Shown here piece by piece: positions 50,497 through 58,760 of a DNA stretch of 61,254 nucleotides. Source of the DNA: Nitrospiraceae bacterium (lineage in GTDB: Bacteria; Nitrospirota; Thermodesulfovibrionia; Thermodesulfovibrionales; Dissulfurispiraceae); contig JAAYUK010000119.1 in NCBI GenBank assembly GCA_012517735.1, forward strand, positions 1 to 61,254, in the 5' to 3' direction. Within the stretch, counting starts at the first letter, position 1. Every line of letters starts with the position of its first letter. Both the position numbers and the translations under genes were made by a program. Under the pieces are notes generated by a model. The model worked only from the letters and a program-made list of their open reading frames with translations. It was not told the origin of the DNA and ran no database searches.

Positions 50497-50937
50497 TCAG
50501 CGTTTTTTCTTCTGAAGACACGGCTTGCGACGCGCTTCTTTCGGCAACAATGCCCTGACATGCTTTCGCACCCGGCGGGCAATGCGCACAGCTTTGCGGG
50601 CAGCTGCCAGAGAGGGTTCTTCATCATCTCCCGGATACCGGGAAATAACAGCATAGTCAGTCAGCAATTCCTGCTCCTCTGCAGTCAGCAACTCCGGCAG
50701 TCCTCCCGGCAAAAGCGCTACCAGCACAGAAATATCGTGGGTCTTCGAAAACGGAATCCCTTCCTATGCCATGAATGCCTTCAGGTATTTCTCGACACAT
50801 TGCTGTGCATGAAAACATACCGTATCGGTCGGGCAGTCATCATCCAGAGTAAGCGTGTGCGCTGCATTCCTGAGGTCATTTTCTGCTTTGCGAACCCATT
50901 CAGACACAACACCGGCAAGCAGTTCACGCCTTTGCAT
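50497..50937 (-). pseudogene. HEPN-domain gene interrupted by in-frame TAG
   Basis: Minus-strand reading frame of 147 codons with one internal TAG at 50764-50766 (codon 58). Before it: VSEWVRKAENDLRNAAH and CFHAQQCVEKYLKAF; after it, in the same frame: GIPFSKTHDISVLVALLPGGLPELL and EEPSLAAARKAVRIARRVR. Relatives have a Trp near this position, so a TGG to TAG change fits. HEPN proteins paired with a minimal nucleotidyltransferase form toxin-antitoxin-like modules; here the toxin-type partner is probably dead. The start overlaps the MNT stop by 14 nt. Confidence 0.82.
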
Positions 50938-51247
50938 ACAGCACCCTGCCTCCATGTGCTGCCGGCCACTCGACCGTACCAACAACATCTTTCCGCCATG
51001 CAAACTCAGCCGGGTCGCTGACGATCACGTCCTTCGGCACCTGAATATCGTGCAATGCAGCCCGTATGCGCAGACGGACCGCTCGTTTCTCCCCCGAAAC
51101 GGGAAGTACCACCAGCAGATCCACGTCGCTTTCCGCTCCCCCTGCATCGCGTGCATGGGAGCCAAAAAGTATGATCTTTTCCGGTGCGAATTGTGAAACA
51201 ATCCGCCGCACCATCTCTCGTATTGCCCTGTCATTTTTTCGTTTCAT
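50924..51247 (-). CDS. Minimal nucleotidyltransferase (MNT), HEPN partner
   Basis: 107 residues. Pol-beta-type motif LFGSHARDAGGAESDVDLLVV with Gly-Ser (29-30) and the Asp pair (41, 43) that binds metal and nucleotide. In MNT/HEPN modules this protein neutralises the HEPN RNase-like partner, in studied cases by covalent modification. It appears intact, whereas its HEPN gene is interrupted. Start 51247 is chosen at MKRKNDRAIREM; there is no clear Shine-Dalgarno. It is the only clearly accessory gene pair in the window. Confidence 0.85.
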   Translation of the reverse strand: MKRKNDRAIREMVRRIVSQFAPEKIILFGSHARDAGGAESDVDLLVVLPVSGEKRAVRLRIRAALHDIQVPKDVIVSDPAEFAWRKDVVGTVEWPAAHGGRVLYAKA

Positions 51248-51400
51248 GGTTCGTATGTCTATCTTGGCACGCAAAAAACCGTGGCGTCAATCCTCAGCTT
51301 CCATTGCGCATAGAAGCAAGTAGATAACCCGTTCCTGTGTCGGCATTGGATGGCCTGTCTCCGACATCTCTTGCCAGCACTTTCGCATATGGCCGTCAAA

Positions 51401-51797: not shown

Positions 51798-52577
51798 ATG
51801 AACGTTTTGCAGCGATTGCTCGATACAAAAAAACAACGTCTTGATCAGGCTAAATATGCAGTTCCCCTTGCCGAGCTGAAGGCCCGTGTCGGCAGTGTCG
51901 AACCGGCACGCGACTTTGCTGCTGCCATAAAGGGCAACGGCTCTGTCCGCCTCATTGCCGAACTGAAAAAGGCCTCGCCGTCGCGGGGGCTGATCAGACC
52001 GGACTTTGATCCGGTCACCATTGCAAACATATACGAAGAACACGGGGCAAGCGCGATTTCCTGCCTGACCGAAGAGGACTATTTTCAGGGACACCTGTCT
52101 TTTCTGCCGCTGGTGCACGAGGCGGTGAAGCTGCCTGTCCTCCGGAAGGATTTCATCTTTGATCCGTACCAGATCCTTGAAGCACGGGCGAATAATGCAG
52201 ATGCGATTCTGCTGATTGCGGGAGCGCTTGAGACAAATCAGGCATCCGATTACCTGCACCTGTCACAGGAGCTCGGGATGGCGGTATTGTTCGAGGTTCA
52301 CAATGAACCGGAACTCGACAAGGCGCTTGCGATAGATGCCCCCATCATCGGCATCAACAACCGCGATCTCACAACGCTGAAGATCAACCTTGAGACTACG
52401 TTCCGACTGAAAACACAGGTTCCGGCGGACAAAACCGTTGTTGCCGAAAGCGGCATCGGCACAAGGGATGATGTGCTGCGCCTGCAGGATGCGAAGATTG
52501 ATGCAATGCTTGTCGGCACCACGCTGATGAAGTCGAAGGACATCGGCGCAAAAATGCGTGAACTGCTCGGCGCTTGA
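51798..52577 (+). CDS. trpC: Indole-3-glycerol-phosphate synthase
   Basis: Ring closure step of tryptophan synthesis. 259 residues, TIM barrel: AELKKASPSRGLI with the catalytic Lys, LTEEDYFQG, PVLRKDFIFDPYQI and VAESGIGTRDDV. GGAG lies upstream of the ATG. It stands alone; no other trp genes are in the window. The next gene starts 16 nt downstream, so the RelA/SpoT-like protein may be co-transcribed with it. Confidence 0.96.
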   Translation: MNVLQRLLDTKKQRLDQAKYAVPLAELKARVGSVEPARDFAAAIKGNGSVRLIAELKKASPSRGLIRPDFDPVTIANIYEEHGASAISCLTEEDYFQGHLSFLPLVHEAVKLPVLRKDFIFDPYQILEARANNADAILLIAGALETNQASDYLHLSQELGMAVLFEVHNEPELDKALAIDAPIIGINNRDLTTLKINLETTFRLKTQVPADKTVVAESGIGTRDDVLRLQDAKIDAMLVGTTLMKSKDIGAKMRELLGA

Positions 52578-52593
52578 CAAAACGGGTATTGCC

Positions 52594-54084
52594 ATGACGA
52601 AAACTGCCAGCCAGGAACTCTATCACGAAATATTCGGCTCGGTGCTCGATCGCACGGAGATGACGCCCTATCTGCTCCTTCCCGCCACCGACTTCAGTCA
52701 TGCCCTGAAACAGGTCACCAAGATGATGCGCAACCGGGGCTTCGACACAATCGGCGAGAGCAAGCTCGTTGCAAGCGAGAAACACCGGGCTTTACGCTAT
52801 GTGATACAGGCATACCGTTATTTCTTCGACTGGATGTTTCCGTTTGCCAAGCAGCAGTTTGCCGGGCTCGCGTCACTCAAATCGCCGAATGCGGGGCTGT
52901 ACCGGTCGTGTCTGAAAGCGATCTCTCACATTGAGGAAGTGCTTTCTACCCCCGAGTTTCGCGACCTGGTATTGGAAGATCCGCGTCATCTCTTCCTGCT
53001 CGCTTCGTCAAGAAAATACCCTCATGTCTTTTACGGCTATAAAGGGAAGAATCTGGAGATTCCGCTTCCGTGGCAGCAAGCTGCCTGCTCACTCCTGAAA
53101 GTGGCCCATCTGATCAAGTCCATTGAGGAAGACAGCCAGGATATCAATGATTATGCGCAGCTCGGCCTTTTTCTGACCTCCGAGGGCATGAGCCTCAATG
53201 ACCTGTACCAGCACGACTGGGAACACCCCATTCACCTGCCCAAAAGCGAATCCGCTCAGCGGGCCTATGTGAAGCTGTCGACCTTTTTTCACAAGCTGAA
53301 GGAATCCATGCTCTTTGATGAGAGGAAGGAATGTCTTGTCTTCAACAGCGGGGATGGGATCGAGATCGATATCGTCGAGATCAAGGCCCGGCTGAAAAGC
53401 CCTGAGAGTATGTTCACCAAGCTCGGCAAGGACGTGGAAGGCGAGGCATGGGATATTCGTGATATTCTCGCCATCACCTTTCTGCTGAAGAGTAAAGACG
53501 ACACGCTCAAGATGTTCCATGCCCTGCAGAAGCGCGGCGTCATTCTGCAGGAAAATACGGCCTCACACTCGATCACACAAACCCTTTTTGACTCGCCGGA
53601 AGACATGCTGGAAGCTACGCGTCGGCTGATGGAAAGCCTTGCCCTGAGCGAAGGCAAGAATGCCGAGCCTGACAAGAAAGAACTGCTGGCGAATGCCTGC
53701 GGCTTTTTTGACGCCCTGAATGTGAATGCAGAGAGCAATCTCCACTCGTCGATCGGCCATCGCAAGCTCCAGTGCAAAATCGCATTCTCGCTGCCGATCC
53801 ACCGGGCGGCAGACACCAATAAAATGATGATCCCGGGAACTCAGCTGTACGAAAAACGGGATCATATTCCGAAAATTACCCGGCAGCATACCCTCGGCAT
53901 TGAACTCCGCATCTCCGATGAGGAAAGCTGGAACGCCTCCGAGTTGAAGGGGGAGTCACATCACGACGCCTATAAGTTCCGCCAGATCGTCTCGGTCATG
54001 AACCGGGTATTCAAGGGCGTGTTCAGTCTGCCGAAAGACCACTTCCCCCAACTGCGTAAGGATCAGGGCATTCTCTTTTCCTAA
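52594..54084 (+). CDS. Divergent RelA/SpoT-type nucleotidyltransferase with novel N-terminal half
   Basis: 496 residues. The C-terminal half reads as a RelA/SpoT synthetase fold: RLKSPESMFTK (266-276) keeps the R-x-K-x3-S-x3-K spacing, DILAITF (Asp 290) the metal Asp, NLHSS (382-386) the SLHTT block, IELR (436-439, Glu 437) the EVQIR catalytic Glu, and HDAYK (457-461) the HWxYK block. The G-loop Tyr of GYQSLH is replaced, so GDP/GTP may not be the acceptor. No HD hydrolase, TGS or ACT domain; residues 1-250 are of unknown fold. It sits 16 nt after trpC and ends 6 nt before a convergent gene. Confidence 0.7.
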   Translation: MTKTASQELYHEIFGSVLDRTEMTPYLLLPATDFSHALKQVTKMMRNRGFDTIGESKLVASEKHRALRYVIQAYRYFFDWMFPFAKQQFAGLASLKSPNAGLYRSCLKAISHIEEVLSTPEFRDLVLEDPRHLFLLASSRKYPHVFYGYKGKNLEIPLPWQQAACSLLKVAHLIKSIEEDSQDINDYAQLGLFLTSEGMSLNDLYQHDWEHPIHLPKSESAQRAYVKLSTFFHKLKESMLFDERKECLVFNSGDGIEIDIVEIKARLKSPESMFTKLGKDVEGEAWDIRDILAITFLLKSKDDTLKMFHALQKRGVILQENTASHSITQTLFDSPEDMLEATRRLMESLALSEGKNAEPDKKELLANACGFFDALNVNAESNLHSSIGHRKLQCKIAFSLPIHRAADTNKMMIPGTQLYEKRDHIPKITRQHTLGIELRISDEESWNASELKGESHHDAYKFRQIVSVMNRVFKGVFSLPKDHFPQLRKDQGILFS

Positions 54085-54704: not shown

Positions 54705-55721
54705 CTATCGGGCAGCTACAATTTCTATTCGCACCCTGATGATCGCAGTATCTTCAACCGCAACCCTCTGCTCCGTTACGGCACCGATCTCCTTCAGCTC
54801 CGCACGCAGGCTGTCCAGCTTTTCGGGGGCAATCTCCACAGTAATAGCCTGCCGTATGGCGGTAGACTCCCTGCCCGTTACACGGCCACCCGTTTTTTGG
54901 GCTGCCTGCCGGACCTGCGCAACAGCAGTGTCAACATCGGCAACCGCAACCGTCATCTTCAATGAGAGAGGGACTCCCGGAACAGCGCTGCGCATGGACG
55001 CAGACGGGGCGGCTTTTTTTGCCCGGTACGGCTCGGTTCTGGCCATCCCTTCAACAGCATCCCGCTTTTCATGGCTTGCGGACTCGTCCAGATTGGTCGC
55101 CTCCTGTGTCCGGACCTTCTCCTTCTGTTCCGCAGTCGGCACCGAAGCCCCTGCTCGCGGAAGCGGAACTGCCGGAGGCAGAGCCTTATCCTCCTGCACA
55201 GCAGGTGGCGCCATTGCGGGCCTTTCAGGGGCGGCTTTCTCCCTCGTTATTCTTTGTGGTCCCCGAACCGTTTCAGGCGCTGCAACGGGTGGCTTCGCTT
55301 CCTTCGGCAGTGCCGGTTCCGTGGCCGGTGCGGACAGCTTCGAAGCCTCCTGCGCCGTATCACGCGTCAGTTCCGGCTGAATGCTCCGGAATATCACTAT
55401 GACAAAGACCGCCAGCATGACGGTCGCAACTGCTCCAAGCGGCAGATTTGCCGGCCATGAACCGAAAAGCCGTTTTCGCCAGCTCGGGGAGGGCTGCGCA
55501 GCTTCAGCACGGATCTGTACCATGATCTTTTCCGTCATCCACGGCGGAGGATCAACTTCTTCGACATGCTGAAGATGCATAACCGTCCTGCGCAGATCGT
55601 CGAGTTCAGCCCGGCACGCCGCACATGACTGCACATGTTCGTCGAGACGCTGCTGGTCGTCCGCCTCAAGCTGGCGATCAACAGCAGCCGGCAACAGTTT
55701 CCTGATCTCGCGGCAATCCAT
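54705..55721 (-). CDS. Anti-sigma factor with zinc-finger N-terminus and DUF4349-like C-terminus
   Basis: 338 residues: ZAS-type zinc finger (His 29, Cys 33, Cys 36, plus Cys 3), a transmembrane helix (about 96-114), a Pro/Ala/Glu-rich periplasmic stretch (about 120-235) and a C-terminal domain (about 245-338; [43 protein letters not shown]) like DUF4349. It should bind the sigma factor encoded just upstream, with which it shares one base (TGATG), and sense the envelope. Confidence 0.85.
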
Positions 55722-56341
55722 CAGAGTGCTCCCAGCTTACCTTTGAGACAGTTTTTGAGCATCTCCCGGGCCCGAAAAAGTCGAGACTTTACGGTACCAA
55801 TTGCTGTCTGGAGCATTTGGCTGATTTCGTCATAAGCAAACCCCTGCATTTCCCTGAGGACAACAACCGCCCTGAATTCGTCATCAAGCGCATTGATACA
55901 GTCCTGAACGATCTTCTGCACATCCCGTTTCTCAAGCATTTCAAGCGCGGATGGAGTATTTGCGGCAACCTCCATACGCACTTCCCCGTCTTCCATAAGC
56001 ACCGGGGCGTCCAGTGAAAAGCCCTGCCGCAACCGCTCGGTCTTCACCTGCTTCAGGCGGTTCCGCGCAAGGTTCATGGTTATCGTTGAAAGCCATGTCA
56101 CAAAACGGGACTTCCCCTGAAACCCGCGAATCTCCCGATACGCCGCGATAAAGGCATCCTGCACAATGTCGCAGGCATCGTGATAGTTGTCCGTCATTCT
56201 ATAGGCGAGGTTCACCATTTTCTTCTGGTATTTGACCACCAGCTCCTCAAAAGCATCGACATCGCCCCGTTGACATCGCAGAACAAGGGAATGGTCCTCA
56301 TCGGCTGTCGGGGAACTACCTGTCCCTACCCTATTAGACAA
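55721..56341 (-). CDS. ECF-type RNA polymerase sigma factor
   Basis: 206 residues: region 2 (about 27-95; AFEELVVKYQKKMVNLAYRM, DIVQDAFIAAYR) and region 4 (about 140-200; LDDEFRAVVVLREMQGFAYDEIS, GTVKSRLFRAREML). RpoE-like group. The annotated start is TTG at 56341; no ATG exists before region 2, so the start is uncertain. Next genes: anti-sigma, coupled by a 1-nt overlap; upstream is the VIT-vWA gene in the same direction after a terminator. Confidence 0.92.
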   Translation of the reverse strand: MSNRVGTGSSPTADEDHSLVLRCQRGDVDAFEELVVKYQKKMVNLAYRMTDNYHDACDIVQDAFIAAYREIRGFQGKSRFVTWLSTITMNLARNRLKQVKTERLRQGFSLDAPVLMEDGEVRMEVAANTPSALEMLEKRDVQKIVQDCINALDDEFRAVVVLREMQGFAYDEISQMLQTAIGTVKSRLFRAREMLKNCLKGKLGAL

Positions 56342-56405
56342 AGTATCCAGTGGTTTGGTTCCTTTTCTGCGAGGAATCTGCTCCTTCTCAATAGTAGCAA
56401 ATACG

Positions 56406-56440
56406 GAAAAAAAAGGCCCTGCACCATGCAGGGCCTTTTT
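56406..56440 (-). terminator. Intrinsic terminator after the VIT-vWA gene
   Basis: GGCCCTGC/GCAGGGCC stem (56415-56435) flanked by A and T runs. On the minus strand it ends in eight T. It separates the VIT-vWA gene from the sigma factor gene. Confidence 0.88.
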
Positions 56441-56459
56441 CCACGTTTGGCTGCTCGTT

Positions 56460-58760
56460 TCAGAAAGAAATGGTCAGCGTTACCCTCACGGATGTGTCTG
56501 CCGACAGGGCGGCAAACTGCCACTTCTCCATCGCCTCGAAAATACACCGGTCGGCAGCCGCATTATTGAGGCCGCTTGATTTGACCTTCAGTTTTTTCAC
56601 TGCACCGTTCCGGTCAATTTCAAACTGCAGCACCACCTTTCCGGATATGGCGGAAGAAACGCATCCGTGCAATTCTTTTACCCGGCTCTGCACTGTTCGG
56701 GCAATCCGTTCCTGCAGTGCGGCTTCACTCACCACCACGGAATCAAGCACGGGACCAGCGCTCCTTTTCACTTCATGCTTCTCATATGCCAGCGCCATAT
56801 CTGCCTTTTTTTGACGGCTCATCGGCATCATGCCCGGTGCGGCAGCATATGCCCTGCCGCCGACAGCATAGTCGGAAACCCCCTCCGGTAGCGGCAGCGG
56901 CTGTTTGATGGCAGTGGAGTCTCCCGAAGCATTCCGCACTTCGCTGTCTACCGCCACAAATGAAGTATAGGCGGTAAGCAGATTATACTTCAGCCCCAGG
57001 TCGGTCACTTCAGCAACGCGTTTGTCGTCTGGCCTCAGCGCATTGTAGTCGGACAGCAAGGCAATTCTGTGCCGCGCCCAGAGATACTTCAGTGCCTCAT
57101 TGTCTTGAGAAGCCTGTGTGCCACGCACATCGATTTTCTGGGAAATCTTCCGGTCGCCAGCGATTCCGCTCATCGTAATGGCTCCTTTCGGTTCACCACG
57201 CCATTTGCCAAATACAATAATCGGGCGCTCTGCAAGAACGTCGGGCACAGCAATCGGCTCAACGTCATACACTTCAAACTTCCCGAAGTCGAGTTTTACC
57301 TGCGTAAGCACTGGCGTCTGAATCATCTTCCGGAAGCGTTCAGCCTGCGCAGATGCCTCGGCTGCCTTGCTTATTACAAACGACTCCCCCATGCCAACCC
57401 GCGCCATGCCTTCAAGGAGATGACGGTTCACGCTCGATCCAATGCCGAAGGTAAACATATTTGCCTCGCCGAGATTTTTCCGGATCAGATCAAAGGCCTC
57501 TGTCTCGACACCAACATAGCCATCGGTAGCAATTACGACTGTTCTCGAATACCCTTTGGTCTTCGGCAATGCCAGCGCACGCTGCAATGCCGGTAGCAAC
57601 TCAGTGCCGCCACCGCCCCGCTGGCGTTCGATAAGCTGAACCGCCTGGGCAATATTTGAGGGGGTTGCCGGCAGCGATTGATTCGCAAGGACAGACGATC
57701 CACCAGAGAACAGCAGCAGGTTGAACGTATCGGTCGGCCTGAGATTGCCGAGGAGATTCTGCATCAGTTTTTTCGATATGTCGAGCGGAAAGCCGTGCAT
57801 TGACCCGGAAACATCCACGATAAAGATATATTCCCTGCCGGGCATCTGATCTGCGTTCACATGTTTTGGTGGCTGAAGCATGAGCAGAAAAAAGTTTTCC
57901 TTCTCTCCTTTTGAAAGCAGCAGGCCGGTTTCAACCTTGTCGCCATCAAGGCGATAGTTCAGAATATAGTCGCGATTACCGCCATTCGCCTCGGCCGTGT
58001 CCAGCAGAATTTTAGCACTCGAAAGTCCATTATACTGAACGCTAATCTTATGGCTGGTGCTGGCGATCTTCTGGATCGGCATACCCGCAGCCAGCTTCAC
58101 TGAGATATCAAACGCATAGGAGGCTGCCTCGCCCTGCTTCAGATACGGATTCTGCGTCCACCGGTCGGCCTCTCCGGCAGTTTCAGCAGTCTGGTTCGAA
58201 TACCGAGGTCCGACAACGGTCGGATAGACAAACGAATAGGTCTTGTCGGTCGGAACGAGCAGTTCGGTATATTTGAGCTCTACTTTGATCTCATCGCCCG
58301 GCATAATGTTCGCAACGTTCATCTGGAATACATTCGGCCGCTGCTGTTCAAGCAACGATGCGCTCTGTCCCGCCTTTTTTGCCTGCTCATACTCGCGGCG
58401 GGCGTCTTCACGCTTGTTGATCTTCGCAACAATCACGCGCTTGCCGATCGTCATTTTCATGCCGTAGACAGCTGCACGGGTTGATGCCGGAAACACGTAA
58501 ATCGCCTCAATCGGTCGTTTTCCGGTGTTTTTGTAAACCTGCGTCACGGCAACATCCGCAATTACTCCTGAGATGGACACATTGGCCGATGTTGACTTCA
58601 GGGGCAGCTGATCCGTTGACGGATCGTCACTTTTCACAAAGAAATACGGTGAAAGCGTTTTGTCGGTCGCCTCTTTTGTGGCCATCGGGGTCGCGGCCAC
58701 CGAGCCTGCCACGAATGCGACAAGGCAGAAAAAAGTGAGATACTTCAACAACGTCTTCAT
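56460..58760 (-). CDS. Exported VIT and von Willebrand A domain protein with AgmX/TonB-like C-terminus
   Basis: 766 residues: signal peptide (about 1-22), VIT domain (about 40-170; VTQVYKNTGKRPIEAIYVFP), vWA domain with the MIDAS motif DVSGS (316-320) and downstream ATDGYVG, and a C-terminal segment (about 680-766) of AgmX/PglI/TonB type (CVSSAISGKVVLQFEIDRNGAVKKL). The architecture resembles inter-alpha-trypsin inhibitor heavy chain and marine sortase-target proteins. No LPXTG-like tail is seen. Probably a periplasmic or surface adhesion/assembly protein; it may be a target or input of the adjacent sigma/anti-sigma pair. Confidence 0.88.
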   Translation of the reverse strand: MKTLLKYLTFFCLVAFVAGSVAATPMATKEATDKTLSPYFFVKSDDPSTDQLPLKSTSANVSISGVIADVAVTQVYKNTGKRPIEAIYVFPASTRAAVYGMKMTIGKRVIVAKINKREDARREYEQAKKAGQSASLLEQQRPNVFQMNVANIMPGDEIKVELKYTELLVPTDKTYSFVYPTVVGPRYSNQTAETAGEADRWTQNPYLKQGEAASYAFDISVKLAAGMPIQKIASTSHKISVQYNGLSSAKILLDTAEANGGNRDYILNYRLDGDKVETGLLLSKGEKENFFLLMLQPPKHVNADQMPGREYIFIVDVSGSMHGFPLDISKKLMQNLLGNLRPTDTFNLLLFSGGSSVLANQSLPATPSNIAQAVQLIERQRGGGGTELLPALQRALALPKTKGYSRTVVIATDGYVGVETEAFDLIRKNLGEANMFTFGIGSSVNRHLLEGMARVGMGESFVISKAAEASAQAERFRKMIQTPVLTQVKLDFGKFEVYDVEPIAVPDVLAERPIIVFGKWRGEPKGAITMSGIAGDRKISQKIDVRGTQASQDNEALKYLWARHRIALLSDYNALRPDDKRVAEVTDLGLKYNLLTAYTSFVAVDSEVRNASGDSTAIKQPLPLPEGVSDYAVGGRAYAAAPGMMPMSRQKKADMALAYEKHEVKRSAGPVLDSVVVSEAALQERIARTVQSRVKELHGCVSSAISGKVVLQFEIDRNGAVKKLKVKSSGLNNAAADRCIFEAMEKWQFAALSADTSVRVTLTISF

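Follow-up and report, generated by a model that had tools for sequence, protein, structure and literature searches.

The acceptors known for the RelA/SpoT superfamily are GMP, GDP and GTP, AMP, ADP and ATP, and the CCA end of tRNA. In FaRel2, the donor site comprises R64, K66, S70, K74, R77, D90 and E145, and R95, located five residues past the Mg-binding Asp, is the second adenine-stacking arginine (PMC11782079). Differences in the motifs syn2, syn3 and syn4 have been linked to adenosine rather than guanosine acceptors, with syn2 reading RYT in Apk2 adenosine 3'-pyrophosphokinases and AVR in ppGpp synthetases (PMC12226406). Since exchange of the syn motifs did not turn Apk2 into a ppGpp synthetase (PMC12226406), these motifs are insufficient to set specificity. 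The proteins described by the profiles TIGR04552 and TIGR04562 have no assigned function. Our literature search returned one paper that names TIGR04552, where a Bdellovibrio gene appears in a table of mutations (PMC9888234). A single-base deletion in this gene swept to high frequency in one experimental line out of six (PMC9888234), which suggests that this organism tolerates loss of the gene. Here we describe a relative of these proteins that we judge, with slightly better than even confidence, to be a diverged, stand-alone chromosomal enzyme of the RelA/SpoT superfamily that would depend on ATP and carry a rebuilt acceptor side.

The window, a stretch of 61,254 nucleotides from a Nitrospiraceae contig (JAAYUK010000119.1), contains at positions 52594..54084 (plus strand, stop codon included) an open reading frame with no internal stop that translates to a RelA/SpoT-like protein of 496 amino acids. 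Comparison with a 75%-identical homologue gave pN 0.15 and pS 0.72, with purifying selection seen in each half of the protein. Since pN is far smaller than pS, and since homologues of 55–75% identity align end to end, we conclude that this is a real gene. The gene is preceded by trpC (indole-3-glycerol phosphate synthase, 51798..52577, plus strand, PF00218 with E 7.5e-87), which ends 16 nt upstream and is probably co-transcribed with it. A promoter scan for the gene and a search for Rfam elements in its vicinity returned none. The same trpC is found upstream in one congeneric genome and in no other locus. This adjacency therefore gives no functional hint, as the preliminary description had also judged. 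Two other groups of genes in the window deserve mention. Upstream of trpC, genes for a HEPN-domain protein and an MNT-type nucleotidyltransferase overlap (50764-51274, minus strand) and probably form an ordinary toxin-antitoxin pair. On the other side (54705-58760, minus strand), translations suggest a sigma factor/anti-sigma pair and, after it, a VIT/VWA-like protein whose C-terminus resembles TonB.

The evidence that connects the C-terminal half to RelA/SpoT enzymes is weak but convergent, and consists of sub-threshold profile matches and a fold search with a low-confidence model. RelA_SpoT (PF04607) is the sole match of the protein among 24,736 Pfam families (E 0.004; E 0.0014 with the C-terminal half as query), and the protein indeed lacks hydrolase, TGS and ACT domains, as the preliminary description had stated. 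The scores for the whole protein (17.9 bits) and for the C-terminal half (19.3 bits) fall short of the curated cut-off of 27 bits. The same profile matches 12 of 13 family members with E-values of up to 1, the best being 3.5e-4. When the TIGR04552 profile was run over 296 Nitrospirota genomes, just one protein outside the family was matched. This protein is a canonical long Rel of 705 amino acids, and the match falls exactly on its R-x-K..S..K..D stretch. Sequence searches of the PDB with the protein or with the family profile returned chance matches only and no RelA/SpoT sequence.

An AlphaFold2 model was built from six sequences (mean pLDDT 61, pTM 0.49). All 50 PDB matches listed by Foldseek for this low-confidence model are RelA/SpoT-type synthetases (best E 0.009), including SAS1/RelQ, SAS2/RelP, Rel, RelA and CapRel. 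With VIA-align, the first 22 entries are also RelA/SpoT-type enzymes (Z 7.7 to 5.5), and the first unrelated protein scores 5.3. The best match (Z 7.7, rmsd 4.7 Å) covers 158 residues within model residues 174–495, although by the program's own note Z values below 8 lie within the chance range and are inconclusive alone. A single-sequence AlphaFold model (pLDDT 38) was set aside, and the unrelated helical proteins that VIA-align matched to the N-terminal helices (Z of about 5 at most) were not taken as evidence for a fold. Since every profile match is below its curated threshold and confidence in the model is low, the likeness to RelA/SpoT could be coincidental and the protein could adopt another fold. 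Against this idea, three partly independent lines agree, namely the Pfam matches across homologues, the bridge between TIGR04552 and Rel, and the fold search, which makes coincidence extremely improbable. The SYNTH-type fold proposed earlier is thus probable.

By far the best family match of the protein is to TIGR04562 (E 3.5e-20) and TIGR04552 (E 1.8e-19). These sole NCBIfam matches span residues 214–474 and reach about half of the curated cut-offs (72.5 of 140 and 70.3 of 125 bits, respectively). All 13 aligned family members match these profiles, and their C-terminal match covers model positions 113–356 at E-values of 1e-19 to 1e-22. The curated cut-offs were reached in none of the 296 genomes sampled from the phylum Nitrospirota. 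The N-terminal helical domain (residues 1–232, 52594..53289, plus strand) is conserved in the family and has no Pfam match. The preliminary description had found nothing recognizable in this half. However, N-terminal pieces alone do match TIGR04552 in five of seven members. These matches are weak (E 0.002–0.3), but TIGR04552 ranks first among 18,950 models in each of them, and, collinear with the match of the C-terminal half, they lie at model positions of about 19–120. Most likely, then, the N-terminal half is a domain of the family itself and not a unique fusion. On the evidence of these alignments, the protein is probably a diverged relative of TIGR04552/TIGR04562 over nearly its full length, and about 140 residues longer than these proteins (352–356 residues).

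The translation confirms the motifs listed in the preliminary description at the positions given there: RLKSPESMFTK (266–276), D290, LHSS (383–386), IELRI with E437, and HDAYK (457–461). As an ordered pattern (R-x-K..S..K / D..A / E-x-[RQ]-[IVL] / H..Y), such motifs arose in 22 of 200,000 shuffles that preserve the composition of the protein. Of 433 distinct open reading frames of at least 200 amino acids, taken from the examined loci as background, 30 contain the pattern, and all 30 encode either canonical Rel/SAS proteins or relatives of the protein described here. The donor-site motif R266-x-K268-x3-S272-x3-K276-x2-K279 (53389..53430, plus strand), predicted to bind the ATP triphosphate, together with D290 and E437 provides counterparts to the FaRel2 donor residues with matching local spacing. 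R266, K268, S272, K276, D290 and E437 do not vary among complete homologues, even at 55% identity, so that the donor-site motifs are intact, and residue 279 is Lys in 22 of 24 sequences and Asn in the other two. The HxxYK motif (residues 457–461) is encoded at 53962..53976 (plus strand).

Some positions in the same half are changed. In the beta2 motif D290-ILAI-T295 (53461..53478, plus strand; D90/R95 in FaRel2), both named residues are invariant, and Thr295 occupies the syn2 position of the adenine-stacking Arg in 24 of 24 sequences. The beta5 motif E437-L-R439-I-S441 (53902..53916, plus strand) retains the catalytic Glu but departs from E-x-Q-I-R at two positions. The Gln two residues past this Glu (Q147 in FaRel2) is replaced by Arg439 in every complete homologue, and the Ile-Arg of guanosine enzymes (syn4) by Ile-Ser, or once by Ile-Thr. 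Judging from these replacements, Arg439 could take over the contact with adenine. Alternatively, the lost arginine might signal a weakened or different donor site. We also considered a SYNTH-fold protein that is catalytically dead or repurposed, for example as a nucleotide sensor. This idea accommodates the loss of the second adenine-stacking Arg and of the G-loop Tyr, the lack of a known activity among TIGR04552 members, and the apparent dispensability of the Bdellovibrio gene (PMC9888234). It sits poorly with the finding that the metal, triphosphate and catalytic residues are all invariant in this family. Pseudoenzymes seldom retain every residue of these three kinds, and we rate a dead or repurposed protein as highly improbable. 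The most likely prediction from sequence and model is an active 3'-pyrophosphokinase that depends on ATP and uses a non-canonical acceptor.

The acceptor side appears to be rebuilt. The model contains a helix (301–313), a short strand (around 319–320), two helices (335–352 and 361–377), and then strands 392–405 and 427–442. Highly conserved residues 315–333 (GVILQEN..S.S..QT.FD, 53536..53592, plus strand) correspond to beta3 and the start of the G-loop. With the RSH topology as a guide to this model, the acceptor-binding G-loop between beta3 and beta4 seems expanded to about 70 residues (321–391, 53554..53766, plus strand, with the two predicted helices 335–352 and 361–377), far beyond the canonical Rel length, although this insertion is uncertain because pLDDT is below 50 across much of the loop. 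Both ends of the loop are strongly conserved, with S324, S326, Q329 and T330 on one side and N382, G388, K391, Q393 and K395 on the other. The latter residues form a candidate acceptor segment, N382-x-[H/Y/F]384-S-S-x-G388-H-[RK]-K391-x-Q393-C-K395 (53737..53778, plus strand). No Tyr within residues 320–395 is invariant among the aligned homologues. The likeliest slot for the stacking Tyr is residue 384, because the segment around it resembles N-x-Y-x-S-x-H, but the register is ambiguous. Equating LHSS with LHTT, as in the preliminary description, would place the Tyr at the variable residue 380. This is one possible register, and two others can be drawn. Different MAFFT settings favor either LHSS as LHTT or residues 324–330 as YQSLHTT. 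Since hhalign, applied to the family and the Rel synthetase domains of the phylum, aligned only the 37-column donor motif, sequence alone does not settle the register of the G-loop. The earlier statement that the G-loop Tyr is missing holds for this protein, which has His384, as do most homologues (20 of 24 sequences in total), but Tyr occupies this position in three homologues and Phe in one. The acceptor site is indeed altered, but not by one Tyr alone, since the apparently expanded loop, Thr295, Arg439 and Ser441 contribute as well.

Could the protein nevertheless be a diverged (p)ppGpp synthetase, with GDP or GTP stacked by residue 384 and a regulatory N-terminal domain? The presence of His or an aromatic residue at this position in all homologues, including Tyr in three, and its N-x-Y-x-S context, which is like that of an RSH G-loop, would be consistent with this function. 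On the other hand, the invariant Tyr is absent, and even replacement of this Tyr by Phe impaired FaRel2 (PMC11782079). In addition, the syn2 and syn4 positions are unlike those of guanosine-specific enzymes, and the G-loop region looks expanded. Nor is there a gap to fill, because a full-length Rel is present in the carriers checked. With PF04607, a long Rel was identified in all 12 carriers tested, and no alarmone hydrolase besides this Rel was found in the carriers tested with HD_4. The Rel of the window genome is encoded on another contig and contains HD, SYNTH, TGS and ACT domains. Because of the changes on the acceptor side, a classical ppGpp synthetase is disfavored, and we consider this function unlikely. 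The survey of Rel proteins produced two further observations. Two carrier genomes also encode a RelA_SpoT-domain protein of 344–365 amino acids that is extended at its C-terminus by about 170 residues and lacks HD, likely an ordinary small alarmone synthetase. One genome contains two long HD_4 open reading frames (721 and 710 amino acids) on two contigs, which suggests Rel paralogues or contamination.

We searched for homologues within the phylum Nitrospirota. A protein search found them in 12 of 198 genomes. The TIGR04552 profile matched 21 of 296 genomes, and since one of these matches is the canonical Rel, 20 carriers remain. A scan of genome contigs with the 496-residue protein returned matches from Nitrospirota only, which does not imply absence from other phyla. 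In a tree of 24 sequences, two members from one family of the window's order form a deep branch, and sequences of a more distant Nitrospirota group nest inside the group of the window's order. This nesting suggests transfer within the phylum. The deep branch (55% identity) carries an altered donor helix, RLKTIYSMATK, and represents a second subfamily within one taxonomic family. The genomes of carriers are larger (median 3.0 versus 2.2 Mb, P 0.008 in a rank test uncorrected for phylogeny). At the sensitivities used, no relatives were found in 50,697 phage records, in 72,556 plasmids (tblastn) or in viral contigs, and the protein has no match in PADLOC or PHROGs. Neighboring genes vary at nearly every locus and include semialdehyde dehydrogenase, glutamyl/glutaminyl-tRNA synthetase with UbiD, alcohol dehydrogenase, radical SAM, AMP-binding enzyme and FMN reductase genes. 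Across 17 loci, no recurrent neighbor, small gene or antitoxin was found.

These data bear on the earlier suggestion that the protein may modify another acceptor in the manner of toxSAS enzymes. Such a toxin would pyrophosphorylate tRNA or a nucleotide, and its antitoxin would be unlinked, or the protein would inhibit itself like fused CapRel. The patchy distribution, the apparent transfer within the phylum, and a large extra domain beside a SYNTH fold with an altered acceptor side could all be reconciled with this role. However, the missing partner gene and the absence of copies on the mobile elements searched leave the suggestion without genomic support. Strong conservation sets the N-terminal domain apart from a phage-sensing domain, and a C-terminal pseudo-zinc-finger region is absent, as only 35 residues follow HxxYK. 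Because of this context and strong conservation the toxin role is disfavored, and we regard it as quite improbable. The most economical reading is that the protein is a working ATP-dependent pyrophosphokinase for a non-standard acceptor, that the N-terminal helical domain is an integral part of the enzyme, and that its chromosomal role is dispensable.

How might such an enzyme work? We surmise that the C-terminal SYNTH-type nucleotidyltransferase fold binds ATP-Mg via R266, K268, S272, K276/K279, D290 and E437, and that the beta,gamma-pyrophosphate of ATP is moved onto a ribose 3'-OH. The adenine clamp would be changed by Thr295 in place of the second Arg and by Arg439 in place of the Gln beside the catalytic Glu, and the acceptor side would be rebuilt around a long G-loop with no invariant stacking Tyr. 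Given these two changes, the acceptor is probably not GDP or GTP in the canonical pose, and an adenine-type or larger molecule seems likelier. The N-terminal helical domain is probably either part of the acceptor site or the regulator of the enzyme. We tentatively propose, at less than even confidence, that TIGR04552-type proteins are an unrecognized branch of the RelA/SpoT superfamily, its acceptor site rebuilt by the expanded G-loop, the altered adenine clamp and the conserved N-terminal helical domain, that makes an unknown pyrophosphorylated nucleotide or modifies RNA or another molecule, and that acts from the chromosome beside the ppGpp system and not as a toxin. The link to RelA/SpoT pyrophosphokinases gives these proteins a concrete, cheap assay and targets for mutation. 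If true, the discovery of a further acceptor would be notable, and the known roles of the fold would widen to include those of a conserved member that is not a toxin.

Compared with the SYNTH domains of RSH enzymes (PF04607; long Rel, RelP and RelQ), the protein has the same order of R-x-K-x3-S-x3-K, Mg Asp, catalytic Glu and H-x-x-Y-K. It differs by Thr295 instead of the syn2 Arg, by R-I-S instead of Q-I-R at syn4, by the lack of an invariant G-loop Tyr, by an apparent long insertion in the G-loop, and by its large N-terminal helical domain. The HD, TGS and ACT domains of long RSH proteins are absent. With toxSAS enzymes (FaRel2, CapRel, PhRel) and (p)ppApp synthetases (FaRel, Tas1, Apk2), it would have in common a SYNTH-type fold and a predicted non-guanosine acceptor site. 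In contrast to these enzymes, it is highly conserved throughout, it comes with no antitoxin or immunity gene, no mobile-element copy was found, and it does not contain the fused pseudo-zinc-finger antitoxin domain of toxSAS enzymes. FaRel2 also has N-terminal helices before its SYNTH domain, but these are much smaller, and it retains the syn2 Arg (R95) and Y128, unlike the protein described here. Apk2, by contrast, has a Thr at the syn2 Arg position, and its RYT motif therefore sets a precedent for Thr295 in an enzyme whose acceptor differs.
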